From NCBI GenBank assembly GCA_004402915.1, contig SORU01000012.1, positions 1 to 44,967 of the forward strand: a stretch of 44,967 nt of DNA. The letters run 5' to 3'. The notes under the pieces are model-generated. The model was not told the origin of the DNA and did not search any database. It worked only from the letters and a program-made list of their open reading frames with translations. Shown here piece by piece: positions 8,133-44,967 of the stretch (its first letter is position 1; every line of letters begins with the position of its first letter). Made by a program: the position numbers and the translations under genes. Source of the DNA: Fidelibacterota bacterium MT.SAG.2. GTDB taxonomy: Bacteria > Fidelibacterota > SORT01.

Positions 8133-9234
8133 ATGCTCGATTTAGAAAAAGATAAAGCAAAAGAACTTACCAAACGGTTGGAAGACCTTCGGGGGTATCT
8201 TTGATATATCCTCAAAAAACACTGAACTCGACAAATTAAGAGAATTTACGGCTGACACTAATTTCTGGAATAACAGCGAGAATGCTCAATCAACTCTGAA
8301 AAAGATCTCTAACCTCGAAAAAGCGATCAAATCGATAGAAAAAATTGACCGATTGAAAGATGACACGAATACCCTCATCGAGCTTACGGAAGAGGATGGA
8401 AGCGGGGAGTTCAGCGCCGAGTTAAAATCTATACTTGAAGAGTTTTCAAATGACGTAGAGGATCTCGAATTCAAACGGATGCTCGGTAAAGAGGAAGACG
8501 TTAAGGATGCTATTCTCGCTATCAATCCGGGCGCCGGCGGGACTGAGGCTCAGGATTGGGTTGAGATGCTGCTGAGGATGTACGAACGTTGGGCTTCCGA
8601 CAGTGGTTTTGAGACGGGAATTTTGGATTATCAGTCAGGCGACGAAGCTGGAATCAAATCTGTTACTATCGAAGTTAAGGGAGAATACGCATATGGCTAC
8701 TTGAAAGCGGAAGCGGGCGTTCACAGGTTAGTGAGATTGTCTCCGTTTGATTCAGCGAATCGGCGGCACACGTCGTTCGCATCCGTATTCGTGTATCCTC
8801 AGGTTGACGAAGATATTGAAATAGAGATAGACGTTTCAGACCTTCGGATCGATACTTACAGAGCCAGCGGAGCGGGTGGTCAGCATGTAAATAAGACCGA
8901 CTCCGCAATAAGGATAACTCACCTGCCGACAGGCATAGTGGTTCAATGCCAGAACGAGCGTTCGCAGCATAAGAACAAAGCCACTGCAATGAAGATGCTG
9001 AAAGCACGGCTATATACATTAAAATTAGAAGAGAAAGCAAGTAAAATGAAAGAGATGGAGTCTACCAAACAGGAGATCGGTTTCGGGAGTCAGATTCGTT
9101 CGTATGTTTTTCATCCGTATAATATGGTCAAAGACCATCGGACAGGAACGGAGACAGGGAATATCCAGGCTGTGATGAACGGCAAAATAGACGAATTTAT
9201 TAAATCTTATTTGTTGAATAATGCGGGACAATAA
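8133..9234 (+). CDS. prfB: Peptide chain release factor 2, expressed by +1 frameshift
   Basis: RF2 reads UGA and UAA stop codons and triggers release of the finished peptide. The first 23 codons run from ATG 8133 (AAGGA site at 8123) to an in-frame TGA at 8202-8204. The rest of the protein, beginning with Asp from GAT at 8203, lies in the +1 frame. The shifted product is about 366 residues, the normal RF2 length. The peptide-release motif GGQ is at about 248-250, and the stop-recognition tripeptide SPF lies in VRLSPFDSANRRH. A frame starting at ATG 8353 would lack the conserved N-terminal helices. lysS follows with a TAATG overlap, the same order as in E. coli. Confidence 0.95.
8190..8205 (+). 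other. Programmed +1 frameshift site in prfB
   Basis: The bases CGGGGGTATCTTTGAT carry every element of the classic RF2 autoregulatory site: a G-rich Shine-Dalgarno-like run, slippery CTT, then T-GA. When RF2 is scarce, ribosomes pause at UGA and slip from CUU to UUU, restoring the frame. Two details differ from the E. coli site: CGGGGG replaces AGGGGG, and the base after TGA is T, not C. Confidence 0.95.
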
Positions 9235-25016: not shown

Positions 25017-25037
25017 TAGGAGCTGTTCATATTTAAT

Positions 25038-26912
25038 TTGAATAATTATCATCCTTTTAATTTCAGTCATACTTTGAAATGTCTTGCAGTTCTTCTGATT
25101 TTTTTCGGTATTCTCGGAAATGGAAATGCCCAAACTCTTTTGAAGGTCAAGGAGATCAAGATACAGGGTAATGAAAATATTTCTGACGGAAAGCTCAAAT
25201 CTCAAATGAATCTGAGGGAACCGGGTTTTCTCTCTTTTTTCAAAAGCGGTTCCGAGTTCAATGCGAGAATCCTGAAACTTGACCGCACAGCTGTTCGCAA
25301 ATACTATGAGAGTAAAGGATACGTTTATGCGGTTGTAAAGGATTCCTTTGAGATAGTTAATAAGAAGGAAATTATTATTCATTTGACCGTTTCGGAAGGC
25401 AAGCGGGTAACGATCAAAGAGATAAATATAAGGGGAAACGATCTTATAGCGGATACGGAAATCCTTAGAATGTTTGAATCAAAATTAGGCGAACCTCTAA
25501 ATCCCTACCTGTTAAGAAAAGATTTGGCGGCAGTGAGAACGGCTTACCAAAACAGAGGAAAACCTTTTGCCCAAATACAAAATAATCTGATCGGCGACGA
25601 GGATGTCATAGTATTAATAGATGTGAAAGAAAATGATACGGTCTTTATAGACAGTATCATTGTACAGGGGGCGAGTAAAGTAATTCCGAATCTTGTAAGG
25701 CGTGAATTATCATTCAAGCCAAGCGAAAAATATAGTATCAGCAAGATCGAAGAGAGTCAGAAACGGTTATTTGAAACGGGATTGTTCTCTAACGTGCTGA
25801 TCACCGCCGTACGAACAGACACAGTCAACAGAAGACTGAATCTCATCGTCAGTGTGCGGGAACGCCGTATGAAACAGATCGGCGGTGAGCTCGGGTTCAA
25901 ACAAAGAAAAATTGCCAACTCAACTGCAACAACAACCGATTTTAACATAGTTGCCGAATGGTACAACAGGAATCTGTTTTCTACCGGACGTCTTATTAGG
26001 TTTAAGGGGAATATATCCGCCGGTATCAGCGATATTTCGAGTGGGGAAACGGGTTTCGAGATAAGCTATACGGAACCATGGATATTCGGTCAAAGAGCTC
26101 CGACAACATTCAGAACATTTATTGAACGGGAGCAGCTGAAAGAACCTGATATTCCTTTGACACGGTTTGGAGCTGATATCGCCGTATATAAAAAATATAG
26201 TGAACAGTTCTCCACCCGATTGTCTCAAGGAATAACTATAACACAAGTAGATGTGTCCAAAATCCCCGCTACCGTGATCGAATCTCTTAAATTATTCGAG
26301 AGCAGGCAACGTTCAATTAATCTGCTCATCATCAATGACAAGCGTAAAAATATCTTCTTCCCGACAAATGGTTCGCTACTCTCTCTTGATTTTAAGTATG
26401 CGGGAGGAATTTTAGGAGGAAACAGTGATCTATACAGAGCTGAATTATCGTGGAGCAGGTATCAGCCGTTTCTGTTTAATAAATCATGGACACTCTCAAC
26501 GCGGATAAAAAGCGGATTTATCAAATCATTCGGAGATACGGAAGAAATTCCGTTTTTTGATTGGTTCTTCCTCGGGGGAGGTACATCTGTAAGGGGATAT
26601 AAAGACCAGGAATTAAGAGATTTCAATATTAGTCAAACAGTTACAGAAATATATGAATTAACGACAAATATGGAGCTGAGAATTCCAATGTTCTGGCGGT
26701 TCGGCGCTGAACTGTTTTTGGATGGCGGTAATCTATGGCAGGAGCTCGGGCAGCTGTCGCCGGCAAAGATGCTATATGCCGGAGGAGCCGGATTATACTT
26801 CATGACTCCGATGGGACCCGCAAGGTTAGATTACGGTTATAAATTAAATCCTTCGGAGAGTGATATTACCTCTCGCGGGAGGCTGCATTTCGGATTCCTT
26901 TTCGCATTTTAA
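25038..26912 (+). CDS. BamA/TamA-family outer membrane assembly protein
   Basis: Outer-membrane insertase-type barrel of 624 residues. It has a signal peptide (hydrophobic stretch about 16-29, likely cleaved after GNA), three POTRA domains (about 35-275) and a 16-strand type barrel. The lid-loop motif (V/I)RG(Y/F) is seen in GGGTSVRGYKDQ, and the chain ends in Phe (FGFLFAF), the usual recognition signal for Bam-dependent insertion. Three POTRAs and adjacency to tamB favour a TamA role over BamA, which normally has five. The start must be TTG 25038: a stop at 25017 blocks extension and no in-frame ATG precedes the signal peptide. The AGGAG is 16 bases away, which is long. It is not a TamL lipoprotein, as no lipobox is visible. 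Confidence 0.88.
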   Translation: MNNYHPFNFSHTLKCLAVLLIFFGILGNGNAQTLLKVKEIKIQGNENISDGKLKSQMNLREPGFLSFFKSGSEFNARILKLDRTAVRKYYESKGYVYAVVKDSFEIVNKKEIIIHLTVSEGKRVTIKEINIRGNDLIADTEILRMFESKLGEPLNPYLLRKDLAAVRTAYQNRGKPFAQIQNNLIGDEDVIVLIDVKENDTVFIDSIIVQGASKVIPNLVRRELSFKPSEKYSISKIEESQKRLFETGLFSNVLITAVRTDTVNRRLNLIVSVRERRMKQIGGELGFKQRKIANSTATTTDFNIVAEWYNRNLFSTGRLIRFKGNISAGISDISSGETGFEISYTEPWIFGQRAPTTFRTFIEREQLKEPDIPLTRFGADIAVYKKYSEQFSTRLSQGITITQVDVSKIPATVIESLKLFESRQRSINLLIINDKRKNIFFPTNGSLLSLDFKYAGGILGGNSDLYRAELSWSRYQPFLFNKSWTLSTRIKSGFIKSFGDTEEIPFFDWFFLGGGTSVRGYKDQELRDFNISQTVTEIYELTTNMELRIPMFWRFGAELFLDGGNLWQELGQLSPAKMLYAGGAGLYFMTPMGPARLDYGYKLNPSESDITSRGRLHFGFLFAF

Positions 26913-37800: not shown

Positions 37801-37870
37801 TTATCGTCACTGCGAGAAAAAGAGCAAACTGCCCCTCCTTTCAAAGGAGGGGATTACAGGGGTGGTTGTC
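37801..37870. repeat. REP-like palindromic repeat
   Basis: CCCCTCCTTT (37832-37841) and AAAGGAGGGG (37843-37852) form a near-perfect palindrome around a single C, followed by the tail GGATTACAGGGGTGGTT. It resembles the short GC-rich REP elements scattered between genes in many bacteria. The preceding CGTCACTGCGAG looks like part of another common intergenic repeat. Only one copy lies in this window. The rest of the 291-base gap (37792-38082) holds a terminator and AT-rich sequence without genes. Confidence 0.6.
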
Positions 37871-37918
37871 TTACGCATGCCGATTAGGGCTATTCCTGAG
37901 CACCACATAGAATATTCC

Positions 37919-37947
37919 AAAAGCCGTCTGTTGATGACGGCTTTTTT
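37919..37947 (+). terminator. Rho-independent terminator between DUF4340 gene and addB
   Basis: AAAAGCCGTC (37919-37928) and GACGGCTTTT (37936-37945) form a perfect 10-base-pair stem with a seven-base loop, ending in a run of six T. It would end the moxR-to-DUF4340 transcript. Confidence 0.85.
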
Positions 37948-38082
37948 CTTATCATTACAATTGAAGAAGTAAACGATATAGTGTATATTGCGATGACAAA
38001 AAAATGGTAGTTTGAGTAATTAGAATTAACCCGGAAAGTATTCTGAACTTGGTTTTTCTCGTAACATCGGTGGAGGTTAAAA

Positions 38083-41000
38083 ATAGCCGTCAATAATCTG
38101 AACGAAGTCGCGAAACGGAAAGAACTTATTTTAGGTCCTACTCGGACAGGAAAAAGTGAACAGCTTCTTGATCGGATAGGATCACTCAAAAAAGCAGGTA
38201 AAAAATTCATTCTGCTCCTGCCCACAAAAGACCACGTCGATCATTACAAGCGTCAGATAGCGTTGAAACACGGCGGAATATTCGGTTCATCGATTGTCGA
38301 CTTGAACGGTCTGGTGAATATGATCGATTTGCGATCTGAATCAGATTTACCACAAATTATCCCCAATTATGTAGTTACTTTTATGCTGCAGAATATAATA
38401 CGTGATAGAGTCTCAAGCGGTGATTTATTGTATTTCAAGAAGGCTGCGGAACTGAAAAGCTTTGCGTCTGAATTCAGCTCTCTGATAGATGAATTAATTC
38501 AATCAAACGTAAAGCCGGAAGATCTTACCGGGTTGGAATTAGGAAGGAGTCAGGAATTGAAATTATCCGAAATCAGACTCCTATATAGCGATTATTTAGA
38601 AAACTGCGCTGATCTGAAAGGGAATAAGCACCAACGGTTAGAGTCGGCTCTGAATTTCCTGGAATCCGATAAGAATATTTTAAAAGATTTTGATACTCTT
38701 ATAGTTGACGGGTTCTATGATTATACTCCGCTGCAATCGCGGCTGTTCAAAACTCTGTTTGAAAGAATAGGCAACGTTTTAACAGCGCAACTGTATGAAG
38801 AAGGACGGGGAGAAGTCTTTGATTATACAAAAAGGAGCGAAAAACTCTTTAACGGTTTTGAGCCTATCGCTCCTAAATTAGGTAAGTGGGATAGCTCTCC
38901 CATAGCGCAAATAAGAGAGAAAATATTCGATACAAGCAGCGCTGCTGAAAAGTCTCGGAAGCCTGTTCCACTCAAGATCATAGTTGAATCGGGCGCGAGA
39001 AAGTTGGTGGAGGAGATTGCGAGGCGGGTAAAATATGAGCTGGTTAAAAATAAAACTACTCCTTCCAGTATCGGTATAATGTATAAGAGAGGGGAACTGT
39101 ATCCGATCTTGATCAAACGGATATTCCCTCGATTCGGGATCCCTGTCACACTCCAACAGAAGGGAACGCTGATAGATAATCCGGTGGTTGCTCTTTTTAT
39201 GAAAATTTTAATGCTCAACCCTGAACGAAATTTCGGGTTTGAGTTCAGGAGTATACTCCGCTCGAATTCGGTGAGTATTATACTCGATGATGAAAAAATT
39301 GACGCTGATTCGATAGTCAGACTATTGCAGACTGCTGGCGCTAACGATGGAAAGGGGGATTGTCTTAAACGGCTTGAGGCTCATCGAATAGATTTGAATG
39401 CAGAGCCGCGATTTTCGGCGGCTGATAAAGCAGAGATGCAAAAAACATTGTCTCGAATCATCGAAATATTTGAAAAATTTACTCATCCTCAGGGAGCCGA
39501 CAAACCTGAATTCTACAAAAATTATATAGAAAATCTGCTTAAATTTTCAGGAATACGAAGAGAGGTGGAGAAGGAGCCTATAGATAAAAACGCTCTGAAC
39601 ATGATGATGACGCAAGCAGATAAAGCGGTAACGCAAATTGGGGAAAAAGAACTCTCATTCTCAGATTTTAGAAGGATATTCAGCGATGCTGTCGGCGAAC
39701 AGAAAACAGAGAGTGAATTCAACTTACCCGGAGGCGTTGTAGTAGTCGATGTTGAGAATGCAAGGTGGAGGCGATTTGACACTTTGTTTATATGTGGAAT
39801 GGTTGACGGAGTTTTTCCTGAAACCGGGCGTCCGGCTCGATTGATAGACAGCGGTATAAGGGAAAAATTGGACGCCAAAATTAATTCTTCTCTGAACAGC
39901 AGCGTTGATCTGATCCAACAAAAAGAAAGGCTCTTGTATTATATCGCCTTGAGCCGGGCAGATGAAAAAATATTCCTCTGTTACCCGTCGGAGGATAGCG
40001 ACGGGAGGGAGCTGATCCGTTCAAATTTTGTTGACAGAACTGAAGAAACCTACAGAATGCTCACAGGCGAAGAATTCATTCCTACATTTTACGGCGATAT
40101 TAAAAAGTTTACGAGCGGCCAAATGCCTTTCACCTCGGAAGACGAATTACTAAGAGCAATGGCGCACGATGCGGTCCGGAAGTTCGGAAGTGATTCCGAT
40201 TTTCAATTAAAACAATCATTTAATTTGATGAGAGAAGCTGACGGAAGACAATCCGGAAAAGCGCCGGCATACTCGGGACTGATTGAAAAACCTTCTGCTT
40301 TGACCGTATTGAATGAGCTCTTAGAGAGGAAGAACGCGTGGTCGGCTACGGAACTTGAGAGATACGGGAAGTGCCCATTTTTGTTTTTGATCGAAAAGCT
40401 GTACAAAATAGAAAAATCGGAGGAATATTCGGAACAAATTTCTCCGTTGGAGAGAGGAAGTTTTTATCATGATGTTCTTAAAAACTTTTATGAGGGATTG
40501 ATAGAAGACCCGCTTTTGCAAGATAATACAAAGTATAAAAAGAGGCTTTCTAACGTTATAAAAGATGTTCTGAAAAATCCGAATTATAAAAAGCATAATA
40601 TTGCTCCGATACTGTGGGAGATCGAGCTGAAAGAAGCCGGAGAAAATTTATTGCGCTACATCGAAAATGATCTCCAGCCTTCGGAGGATAAACTACTGCC
40701 GTTAGCTGTTGAAGTAGGATTCGGGGCGGCATCTGAATCTACTGAGGGGTCATATTCAACAGAACAACCGCTTATCATAGAAAAAGAGGGTATCAAGGTA
40801 ATCTTAAAAGGAAGGATAGACCGTATAGACGGTAACGAGGACCGGACCGAGTTTTCCGTTATAGATTATAAATCGGGAGGAATACCGGTCAGGCGCGACG
40901 TTGAAGACGGCATAAATCTCCAATTGCCGATTTACTTAGAAGCTGTAAGGCAGTTGATACTGAATAAGCATAAGTCCAAACCGCGGACAGGCTATTATTA

Positions 41001-41196
41001 TAGCCTGAAGAGTTCGAGAAAGCTATCGATCTACGATAATGATAAAGGGATCGACTGGGAGAGTGCATTTAAGCCGACCAAAGACTATATTATTGAGTAT
41101 GTTGATAATATAGGGAAAGGACGATTCCCCGTTGAACCGAAGGATTGTAAAAAGCCATGTGATTTTTCCGATTTATGCAGGCAAAACATTGATTAA
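38083..41196 (+). CDS. addB: AddB-type helicase/nuclease subunit with PD-(D/E)XK and Fe-S cluster
   Basis: Subunit of the AddAB (RecBCD-like) enzyme that processes double-strand breaks. With the start placed at 38083 the protein has 1037 residues. A Walker A motif GPTRTGKS lies at 18-25. The UvrD-like body has RFDTLFICGMVDGVFPE and LLYYIALSRADEKIFL. A RecB-type nuclease at about 880-970 carries D928-Y929-K930 (VIDYKSGG). Four cysteines for an iron-sulfur clamp are present: Cys764, Cys1022, Cys1026 and Cys1032 (C-X3-C-X5-C). The first standard start is TTG 38263, which would delete the Walker A. The frame is open from 38065, and TGGAGGT at 38071-38077 sits six bases from an ATA at 38083, so an AUA start (or a sequence error) is likely. 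addA is not adjacent. Confidence 0.85.
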   Translation: MAVNNLNEVAKRKELILGPTRTGKSEQLLDRIGSLKKAGKKFILLLPTKDHVDHYKRQIALKHGGIFGSSIVDLNGLVNMIDLRSESDLPQIIPNYVVTFMLQNIIRDRVSSGDLLYFKKAAELKSFASEFSSLIDELIQSNVKPEDLTGLELGRSQELKLSEIRLLYSDYLENCADLKGNKHQRLESALNFLESDKNILKDFDTLIVDGFYDYTPLQSRLFKTLFERIGNVLTAQLYEEGRGEVFDYTKRSEKLFNGFEPIAPKLGKWDSSPIAQIREKIFDTSSAAEKSRKPVPLKIIVESGARKLVEEIARRVKYELVKNKTTPSSIGIMYKRGELYPILIKRIFPRFGIPVTLQQKGTLIDNPVVALFMKILMLNPERNFGFEFRSILRSNSVSIILDDEKIDADSIVRLLQTAGANDGKGDCLKRLEAHRIDLNAEPRFSAADKAEMQKTLSRIIEIFEKFTHPQGADKPEFYKNYIENLLKFSGIRREVEKEPIDKNALNMMMTQADKAVTQIGEKELSFSDFRRIFSDAVGEQKTESEFNLPGGVVVVDVENARWRRFDTLFICGMVDGVFPETGRPARLIDSGIREKLDAKINSSLNSSVDLIQQKERLLYYIALSRADEKIFLCYPSEDSDGRELIRSNFVDRTEETYRMLTGEEFIPTFYGDIKKFTSGQMPFTSEDELLRAMAHDAVRKFGSDSDFQLKQSFNLMREADGRQSGKAPAYSGLIEKPSALTVLNELLERKNAWSATELERYGKCPFLFLIEKLYKIEKSEEYSEQISPLERGSFYHDVLKNFYEGLIEDPLLQDNTKYKKRLSNVIKDVLKNPNYKKHNIAPILWEIELKEAGENLLRYIENDLQPSEDKLLPLAVEVGFGAASESTEGSYSTEQPLIIEKEGIKVILKGRIDRIDGNEDRTEFSVIDYKSGGIPVRRDVEDGINLQLPIYLEAVRQLILNKHKSKPRTGYYYSLKSSRKLSIYDNDKGIDWESAFKPTKDYIIEYVDNIGKGRFPVEPKDCKKPCDFSDLCRQNID

Positions 41197-42683: not shown

Positions 42684-44967
42684 ATGGAATTAGATTCTCA
42701 ACAAAAAAAGGCTGTAGATAATCCGACCATTCCGATGGCAATCTCTGCCGGAGCGGGTTCCGGAAAAACAAGGGTACTCGTCGAACGATATATTAAAGTA
42801 ATAATCGATGGGCTGGCGGAAACCGAAGAGATTCTCGCCATTACTTTTACCATAAAAGCCGCTGCCGAGTTGAAGCTTAGAATTCGGGAACGGTTGAATG
42901 AGATACAATTCGAGAAGCCGGAGACAGATGAGGGCTTGAACGCTCAAAAAGCGCTTTTGACCATTGAATCCGCTCCAATTTCTACAATACACAGCTTTTG
43001 TCAGTCGATTCTGAAGAAATATGCGATTGAAGCGGAAATCGAACCCGACTTTCAGATTTTAGAATCTAACGAATCAAGCTTAGTGTATAAAGAGATCATT
43101 CAGCGGGTGACAGCGCAGTTTCTTCGGACAAACAATGAAAAAGAAAAAAAGTTGATTCACACTCTTGGACTAAACGATCTGCGATCCATAGCTGAAAACA
43201 TGTTGAATGACAGATACAAATTTTCAAATGCCGTCAACAGCACTCTGTTTCTTCATCGAAACGGCAAGTTTGAAGAAACGATTGAGAATATGCTCGAAGA
43301 TGAGTTAAGCATTCTATTGAACAGCGTAGAAATGAAAAGCTCGATCGATGATCTGAAAAAATGCATTCCATTGGATAAGAGTGATGCAATGGCGATGATA
43401 CGGGAGAACGTGCTTGATCTGTTTGACGAAATTTCAGCACAGAAGAGCAACGGAGAAAAATTATCCAAGTTGTTGGAGTTGGGGAATTCGATAGATTTAA
43501 GAGGAGGCAGAAAAACTTCATGGGATGAAGGCGAAAAAGATAGAGTCAAATCTTCTTTAAAAACAATTAGAGCGGTTATTGATGATTTATTCGGAGGCGA
43601 GAAAGAGCTCAATTTCATGAATAATGAAACCGCGGAGAAGCTGCTTGAGGGTTTAGAGCTGTATATGAGCCGGCTTTTCAAAGAATATGACTACACAATG
43701 AGCTCTTTAGGCGTTCTTGATTATGATGGTCTGCTGTTCCGGGCGATGAATCTACTAAGTGAAAGAAAGGATATTGCCGCTTTTTACAGACAACAGTATA
43801 AGCAAATTCTTGTAGATGAGTTTCAGGACACGGATGATCTTCAGATGAATATTATCAAAATTTTAACAACAGACGACGAAAATGTTCCTGTCCTTTTTCT
43901 TGTCGGAGATGAAAACCAATCGATATATAAATTCCGCGGCGCAGAGGTTTCCAATTTCCAAAAAATGATTGAAACAACCGGCATCAAAGGACCTTTATAC
44001 ATCACAAAGAATTATAGAAGTCAACCGGATATGATAAAGTTTTTTAATTCTTTCTTCAGTTCATTTCTCGGTGATACGGATAACGGGTATGAAGTTTCTC
44101 AAACATTCCGCGAGAAACTCGGCGACACTCCGAACGTACAATTCCTGCTGCCTATAGCAAATAACGGTAAAGGCGTCTCAAACAGAGAATTGGAAGCGGA
44201 CCTGATGGCAAGACAACTGCTTTTGTTTGTGGGATCAGAAAGCATATCTGACGGCGAGGGTGGAGAAAGAATATTGAAGTTCAGCGATATCGGAATCCTA
44301 TTCCAAAAAATGACTTCAGTTGCGGAATACTTGGACAAATTTGAACAATTGGGAATTCCTTATTACATGAAAACCCGCAGTGGATTCTATGACAGGCTTG
44401 AGATCCTCGATCTGCTGAATTTTTTCAGGGCAATTGAAAAGCCGAAGGATGATTATGTCCATGCCGCTTGGCTCCGCTCTCCGATAGTAGGATTATCAGA
44501 TAACGCTTTATTCTTGATCGGTACGGGTGTCGGATTTTCGGCGTCACTGAGCAGCGAAATCGGCGACAACTATTCTCAGGAAGATCAAGAGCGGTTGAGT
44601 AGAGCTGGAGAATTGATGTTCAAATACCGGAAATTAAAAGACAGAATGGGTGTCTCGGATTTTGTGCAAAAGATAGTTGATGAGATCGCCTATATCCCCT
44701 TTCTTCTTTCTACAGAAAATGGTACGCAGAAGGCACTGAATATTTATAAACTCCTCGATAAAATTGCGAGTTTTGAGAAAACAGGAGTTAAAACTTTTGG
44801 TGATCTTGTAGAACAAATGGACACTATTCAGAGCGGAAATGTGAAAGAAGGTCAAGCTCAAGCATCTTCCGAAGAGGATGATGTAGTTACGATAACGACG
44901 GTGCATGGCTCAAAGGGATTACAATTTCCGGTGGTATTTCTCCCCGATTTAGAAGCTTCATTCCCTC
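42684..44967 (+). CDS. addA: AddA-type UvrD/Rep helicase, 3' end beyond window (partial)
   Basis: Superfamily 1 helicase subunit of the AddAB break-repair enzyme, open from ATG 42684 to the window end (761 complete codons). The N terminus MELDSQQKKAVDNP is followed by motif I AGAGSGKT at 22-29. Motif Ia reads AITFTIKAAAEL, motif II LVDEFQDTD, motif III LVGDENQSIYKFRGA, motif IV NYRSQPD, and motif V TTVHGSKGLQFPVV close to the edge. Motif VI and the C-terminal nuclease domain should lie beyond 44967. No good ribosome site is seen; TTG 42672 in frame is an alternative. It is separated from addB by two unrelated genes, one on the opposite strand. Confidence 0.93.
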   Translation, partial: MELDSQQKKAVDNPTIPMAISAGAGSGKTRVLVERYIKVIIDGLAETEEILAITFTIKAAAELKLRIRERLNEIQFEKPETDEGLNAQKALLTIESAPISTIHSFCQSILKKYAIEAEIEPDFQILESNESSLVYKEIIQRVTAQFLRTNNEKEKKLIHTLGLNDLRSIAENMLNDRYKFSNAVNSTLFLHRNGKFEETIENMLEDELSILLNSVEMKSSIDDLKKCIPLDKSDAMAMIRENVLDLFDEISAQKSNGEKLSKLLELGNSIDLRGGRKTSWDEGEKDRVKSSLKTIRAVIDDLFGGEKELNFMNNETAEKLLEGLELYMSRLFKEYDYTMSSLGVLDYDGLLFRAMNLLSERKDIAAFYRQQYKQILVDEFQDTDDLQMNIIKILTTDDENVPVLFLVGDENQSIYKFRGAEVSNFQKMIETTGIKGPLYITKNYRSQPDMIKFFNSFFSSFLGDTDNGYEVSQTFREKLGDTPNVQFLLPIANNGKGVSNRELEADLMARQLLLFVGSESISDGEGGERILKFSDIGILFQKMTSVAEYLDKFEQLGIPYYMKTRSGFYDRLEILDLLNFFRAIEKPKDDYVHAAWLRSPIVGLSDNALFLIGTGVGFSASLSSEIGDNYSQEDQERLSRAGELMFKYRKLKDRMGVSDFVQKIVDEIAYIPFLLSTENGTQKALNIYKLLDKIASFEKTGVKTFGDLVEQMDTIQSGNVKEGQAQASSEEDDVVTITTVHGSKGLQFPVVFLPDLEASFP

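Follow-up and report, generated by a model that had tools for sequence, protein, structure and literature searches.

The addB gene of a deep-sea Marinimicrobia bacterium, located in the window, by which we mean the whole 44,967-nucleotide stretch of DNA that was analysed, is probably translated from an AUA codon at 38083–38085, which codon would descend from an ancestral ATG and would support weak initiation; to this reading, deduced from the comparison of sequences, we assign a probability of somewhat more than three in four. AUA starts are already known, and addB adds one more case; the recurrence of unusual starts in the genus is a less expected observation and, for that matter, the more interesting lead.

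Start region of addB

The addB frame, located on the + strand as are all the features of this region, is open past the in-frame TAA at 38062–38064—its upstream limit—and reaches its stop at 41196. The preliminary description had claimed that no ATG, GTG, or TTG lay between that TAA and the TTG at 38263, and the reading of the sequence bears this out: 66 codons past the TAA are free of all three, TTG 38263 being the earliest canonical start codon of the frame. Counted from ATA 38083, the gene (38083–41196) encodes 1037 aa, and the translation of the 60 codons from that ATA (IAVNNLNEVAKRKELILGPTRTGKS etc.) includes the Walker A motif (GPTRTGKS), the conserved N terminus being thus encoded inside the canonical-start-free stretch. 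Canonical start codons constitute 5.5% of the codons in 224 orthologue-backed genes of the own genome (G000), where the chance of finding 60 coding codons without any of them is 3.5%; the gap by itself is unremarkable, and its weight would lie in the start having to fall within it, which argument rests on homology.

As to that homology, the ADDB_N domain (PF21445; 68.8 bits, cut-off 26.6) matched residues 15–239 of addB at profile positions 1–234, and the PDDEXK_1 nuclease domain (PF12705; 112.5 bits, cut-off 22) matched residues 753–1033, with a UvrD_C-like match remaining below the cut-off. The one distinct solved sequence matched at an E of 0.001 or better was 3u44_B, the AddB of B. subtilis, in whose alignment residue 14 of addB pairs with residue 4. 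From these domains and the 3u44_B match we call the gene AddB-like; the NCBIfam equivalog model for AddB, TIGR02773 (addB_Gpos), gave 189.5 bits, below its cut-off of 903.7, and TIGR02786 and TIGR02774 were likewise under theirs. A candidate for the addA partner lies close by, at 42684–44966 and running past the window end, with two other genes in between; its best NCBIfam match was addA_Gpos at 341.5 bits, under the equivalog cut-off of 707.65. Since ADDB_N begins at residue 15 with profile position 1, and since the pairing with 3u44_B already involves residue 4 of that structure, the start should be located at or upstream of approximately codon 38122, which placement excludes TTG 38263; a start at this TTG would drop the Walker A motif, whose encoding ahead of the TTG had been recognized beforehand and is substantiated by both alignments.

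A Shine–Dalgarno (SD) sequence GGAGGT (38072–38077, within TGGAGGT 38071–38077) precedes the ATA, and the spacing from GGAGG (38072–38076) to ATA 38083 is 6 nt, in agreement with the good SD six bases away that had been noted previously; the 16S anti-SD GGATCACCTCCTTT is intact in G002, a congener. Further upstream there is a promoter-like sequence TTGAAG-17-TATATT (37961–37989; 9/12 positions, three such sites versus 1.0 expected in shuffles), conserved in the three congeners, and a terminator-like hairpin (37919–37945; one versus 0.3 expected in shuffles) that closes the upstream operon and has a similar sequence in the alignment of G002 and G001, from which hairpin it follows that addB is probably transcribed alone. 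An intergenic palindrome, CCCCTCCTTTCAAAGGAGGGG, was also observed at 37832–37891, with similar copies (82–88% identity) in C2 (two) and C26 (one) of G000.

The search for addB in 61 genomes, namely the own plus 60 others, gave matches in 24 of them, the own included. Two of these, G001 and G002—the latter being Candidatus Marinimicrobia bacterium MT.SAG.3 (SORT01000008.1)—belong to the same genus, and G003 and G004 to the same family; the amino-acid identities of addB were 91% (G002), 73% (G001), and 43% (G003 and G004). In the alignment G001 carries ATG exactly at the ATA codon, the start region reading TCA ATA ATG GTC GGC AAT AAT in G001 versus TTA AAA ATA GCC GTC AAT AAT in G000. At the SD position, AAAGG in G001 stands against GGAGG in G000, which difference is in line with the compensation between start and SD reported for GUG and UUG, weaker starts that are accompanied by stronger SDs (PMC5622118). 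G004 has an ATG near the start position, and G003 a GTG followed by an ATG three codons on. In G002, about 80 bases are deleted between the promoter-like region and approximately codon 4, so that both the SD and the start are gone; the promoter-like sequence is retained, and two in-frame GTG codons precede the Walker A motif, neither with a clear SD as judged by eye. This deletion might reflect a genuine further change of the start, or else a fault of the assembly. The ATA is therefore absent from the relatives, with ATG at or near the site in G001, G003, and G004 and the site deleted in G002; and the ancestral start is missing in both close species (G000 and G002), being seen within the genus in G001 only. 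The alignment of relatives that the preliminary description had proposed accordingly gave ATG in G001 and not a conserved ATA, with G002 undecidable owing to the deletion, and AddB in G001, G003, and G004 starts near the ATA site rather than at a TTG near 38263, which positions support the AUA as a true start.

We propose that the ancestral start of addB was ATG, which G001 would still keep, and that a G-to-A change at the third base (38085) turned it into AUA. This AUA would be read by the ordinary fMet-tRNA (anticodon CAU) and positioned by the GGAGG sequence six bases upstream; as IF3 should discriminate against AUA, AddB would probably be produced at a reduced level, which reduction may be tolerated in a low-copy repair nuclease. 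The direction of the change we infer, as we do the AUA initiation and the low yield.

Sequence error, decay, and other starts

That an ATG might have been misread as ATA had also been considered, in which circumstance the cell would have ATG at 38083–38085 and the A at 38085 would be a sequencing or single-cell-amplification artefact of the G-to-A kind. G001 does have ATG, a single transition apart, and with the nearest relative named as a SAG and an assembly completeness of 67%, G-to-A amplification damage is conceivable; such an error nevertheless appears unlikely to us. When 173 G001 genes were mapped on G000 DNA, the interior nonsense codons amounted to 0 in 63,435 aligned residues: the stops in five alignments were each at most 12 residues from an alignment end, and two alignments had a frameshift-like second match. 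The mapping of 105 G002 genes on G000 (38,179 residues) gave three stops at most about 11 residues from the end and a frameshift whose position the G001 genes had shown as well. In the other directions some stops lay deeper inside: a stop in the DNA of G001 fell at residue 199 of 310, and the DNA of G002 had two, at residues 44 of 514 and 42 of 179. Nonsense changes represent 4.6% of random substitutions, so that 16–21 of them would be expected per randomly lost start; by the same arithmetic, the absence of interior nonsense places the error rate of G000 below about 3.5e-4 per base, a rate at which no more than about 0.2 starts would be expected to be lost by error among 224 genes.

Against that figure stand the frames flagged by the orthologue comparison. 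The G000 starts without a canonical codon within five codons of the start picked in the partner were 7 of 111 (G002) and 12 of 165 (G001), the corresponding counts being 7/110 and 5/187 for G002 and 5/166 and 9/188 for G001, although many of the partner picks are internal codons. We consequently filtered by hand, retaining only those frames that lacked any canonical codon upstream and whose next one lay at least 15 codons downstream, which filter left 4 of the 16 flagged frames in G000 (addB, iolG, GH130, and the frame at G0 C1 61431, of 328 aa), 2 of 13 in G001 (Omp85 and gatB), and 1 of 11 in G002 (a lipoprotein). In iolG, GH130, and the 328-aa frame, the canonical start of the orthologue is missing in G000 while the frame is kept; the change in iolG and that in the 328-aa frame may have gone in either direction. 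Base error would, moreover, hardly explain those non-canonical starts that are conserved in two or three genomes. The misreading is thus disfavored by the lack of interior nonsense as well as by the other G000 genes devoid of their orthologue's canonical start.

The loss of the ancestral start region in two of the three congeners fits a slow decay of addB too, in which G000 would have a broken start and G002 a deleted one, the frame staying open only because these losses are recent. Over 1036 codons the omega of addB was 0.15 with G001 and 0.28 with G002, with no frame loss; the latter value, though the highest among the 17 genes of the syntenic block compared between G000 and G002, is far below 1. 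Within the N-terminal segment, G000 and G001 differ over 60 aligned codons at 5 first, 7 second, and 22 third positions, with 18 synonymous and 9 other codon changes (dN 0.087, dS 0.96), as compared to a dN of 0.164 and a dS of 1.07 for addB outside of that segment, which pattern of purifying selection counts in favor of the AUA start; the differences with G002 (1, 2, and 4 at the three positions; 4 synonymous and 3 other changes) are too few to judge. With the 1037-codon frame intact in both G000 and G002, the promoter-like sequence conserved, and the ADDB_N and nuclease domains above their cut-offs, decay is very improbable; some mild relaxation of selection is possible, but the gene is not drifting freely. 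Initiation at CTG 38098 (38098–38100), which would make the N terminus five codons shorter, had been put forward as a poorer option: the codon is common to both close species, and in G002 a GGTGAT complementary to the extended anti-SD precedes it after the deletion (by eye), but in G001 it is CAG, in G000 it lies 21 nt from GGAGG, and CUG accounts for 0.024% of bacterial starts (PMC11497404), all of which makes this start improbable, if slightly less so than decay. Finally, a start in another frame might be followed by a programmed +1 frameshift as in prfB. The window itself contains a prfB-like frame, named by eye (8146–9231, + strand), whose want of a usable in-frame start is explained by the classic +1 site GGGGGTATCTTTGA at 8191–8204, so that the device seems present in the genome. 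Around the addB start, however, the out-of-frame GTG 38070 shares bases with the SD and lacks one of its own, inspection by eye gave no slippery or prfB-like site, and G001, with its in-frame ATG, needs none; we give this explanation hardly any credence.

Probable unusual starts elsewhere in the genus

To place the AUA of addB in context, we surveyed stretches of the three congeners that amount to 2.06 Mb, with 1522 frames no shorter than 150 codons, and curated the resulting list of genes by hand. In the window, an Omp85/BamA-like gene (25029–26912, + strand) has a probable AUA start at 25029 behind an AGGAG SD (25018–25022, + strand), and that ATA is conserved in the three congeners; G000 and G002 each have a TTG three codons past the ATA, and for G001 the earliest ATG, GTG, or TTG is an ATG within the signal-peptide core. 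The gatB of G001 has AGGAG and then ATC, the NCBIfam GatB models matching from residues 2–8 and the first canonical codon being 46 codons on, whereas gatB in G002 starts with ATG. The ruvC of G001 has AGGAG followed by ATT, with TIGR00228 above its cut-off from residue 4; nine genomes yielded six ruvC genes, of which three (G001, G003, and G006) show no ATG, GTG, or TTG from the in-frame stop up to the GIDPG motif, and since G003 and G006 are outside the genus, starts of this kind may be more widely spread in the phylum. In G000, iolG (TIGR04380 above cut-off) has AGGAGG and then ATA or ATT, with ATG in G001; GH130 reads ATC GTA AAA in G000 versus ATC ATG AAA in G002 and GTG AAA in G001; and an M14 peptidase has ATA versus ATG in G001, another possibility being a small indel close to an ATG that is out of frame.

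Homology is strong for gatB, ruvC, iolG, GH130, and the GDPD gene given below; signal peptides or conservation mark the Omp85/BamA-like gene, the M14 peptidase, the lipoprotein, and the secreted proteins. A PpiA-like lipoprotein, named by eye, has ATC in the three species (with an ATG four codons later in G001 and an upstream TTG in G000), a 620-aa secreted protein has ATT directly after the stop in G000 and G001, and a 135-aa secreted protein has ATT in G002 and ATC in G001. By eye, a creatinase-like gene of G001 has ATT and a UbiA-like gene of G001 and G002 a probable CTG behind GAGG. Three more had no orthologue in the congener DNA examined: a GDPD gene of G000 (AAGGAG, with ATA at nine bases), a 364-aa secreted protein of G001 (ATA), and a CMP-sugar synthetase-like gene of G002 (ACG). 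Two G000 candidates are ambiguous, namely the frame at G0 C7 20091, in which ATA stands directly before a TTG, and a SIR2-like gene. What look by eye like non-canonical starts were also noted in other families of the phylum, with GGGAGG and then ATT in the Omp85 of G011 and GGAGG and then ATA in the infC of G007. A headless-looking frame of G018—a single-contig genome from another family of the phylum—was rejected, an in-frame stop following its ATG.

In the stretch that leads up to the first canonical codon, a good SD preceded 18 of 327 AUA, AUU, or AUC codons, as against 74 of 3699 for the remaining codons (odds ratio 2.85, p = 3e-4). These statistics are modest, and the hypothesis was formed after part of the data had been seen; by our own reading, about 6 of the 18 cases are questionable or duplicated, a low-complexity G002 frame and a G001 gene each contributing two, and others having a likely downstream ATG. 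By genome the counts were 5/67 (G000), 9/139 (G001), and 4/121 (G002, not significant, p 0.27), and in the controls 1/85 for E. coli K-12 (350 kb), that one not being a true start, and 0/91 for G018 (400 kb). The scan is incomplete: the infC of E. coli, with its true AUU, was in the sample and went unlisted, apparently displaced by a longer antisense frame. Over the first 60 codons, ATA showed no enrichment behind an SD (133/2244, or 5.9%, a share that falls in the range spanned by other codons), which result implies that such starts are a small minority. The scoring of 5' extensions by codon usage was too weak, as 506 frames passed the body filter and the 19 listed did not include addB; nor was the genus favored in the count of frames with at least 20 codons from the stop to the first canonical codon (E. 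coli 43/238, G018 40/269, G000 21/283, G002 36/464, G001 44/544). By an uncertain hand count, the rate of non-canonical starts in the genus ranges from about 0.7% (G002) to 3% (G000) of frames. AUA and AUU starts, which the preliminary description had termed very rare, deserve that qualification for bacteria generally; within this genus they seem less rare.

Concerning the initiation machinery, the initiator tRNA in G000, G001, and G002 has the anticodon CAU and GGG/CCC in the anticodon stem; IF3 was present in the nine genomes searched, with its FRGREM segment kept in the congeners; infC has an apparent TTG start in the genus, and probably ATA or ATT, by eye, in G007 and G004; and the 16S, found in one of five genomes searched (G002, and not in G000), has the anti-SD intact and the CATGAAGT segment as well. 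We thus found nothing abnormal when looking for a relaxed machinery in the initiator tRNA, the IF3 alignment, and the G002 16S, so that, on the plain reading, initiation is ordinary and SDs assist it at weak codons. We give even odds to the proposition that start-codon selection is relaxed in the genus and perhaps more widely in the phylum, in which case AUA, AUU, and AUC (with some CUG) would be normal and partly stable starts for about 1% of the genes, including the likely essential gatB and the Omp85/BamA-like gene, alongside an ordinary-looking initiator tRNA, 16S landmarks, and IF3.

Significance and known systems

Taken alone, addB would be one more rare AUA start, in a DNA-repair nuclease whose ATG version survives in a congener, and its wider value is methodological: gene finders restricted to ATG, GTG, and TTG would cut 60 residues, the Walker A motif included, off AddB, and would make similar errors in the gatB, ruvC, iolG, GH130, and Omp85 genes of the genus. 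If about 1% of the genes of the genus do use AUA, AUU, or AUC, such gene callers would mis-start or miss them, and the genus would offer a natural system in which to ask what sets the strictness of IF3 in the choice of start codons. Among the publications that a search on AUA start codons in bacteria returned, none was on addB by its title and the start of its abstract, and a search on start codons in Marinimicrobia returned nothing relevant.

The E. coli infC is annotated with an AUU start, and pcnB of the same species is said to have AUU as well; both resemble addB in the possession of a near-cognate start with an SD. The infC gene is autoregulated by IF3, which loop is a feature of infC, no such loop being evident for addB.

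AUU, AUC, and AUA starts occur in bacteria, and IF3 discriminates against them (PMC4611024). In the part available to us of a study on S. aureus (PMC13009471), infC, ccpN, and citZ start with AUA, with the ccpN and citZ AUA reporters yielding about 10% of the AUG level and ccpN up to 30% in rich medium; addB does not figure among the genes named there. Like addB, these three genes have the AUA behind an SD, extend beyond infC to ordinary genes, and are either conserved or lineage-specific; they differ in that the S. aureus starts were documented by ribosome profiling, plus reporters for ccpN and citZ, whereas addB is known from sequence alone. For L. monocytogenes, another study (PMC13068326) gives fixed non-canonical starts in 6 of 2265 conserved genes, or about 0.26%, as compared to approximately 0.7–3% of the sampled frames in our hand count, and describes rsbW as ATG > ATA > ATT. 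Those rsbW variants, unlike addB, were selected by acid in the laboratory (two related natural strains also having them) and were measured with reporters; but, as would be the case for addB, the ATG changed to ATA in one lineage with the frame kept, and the translation of rsbW was lowered, not lost.
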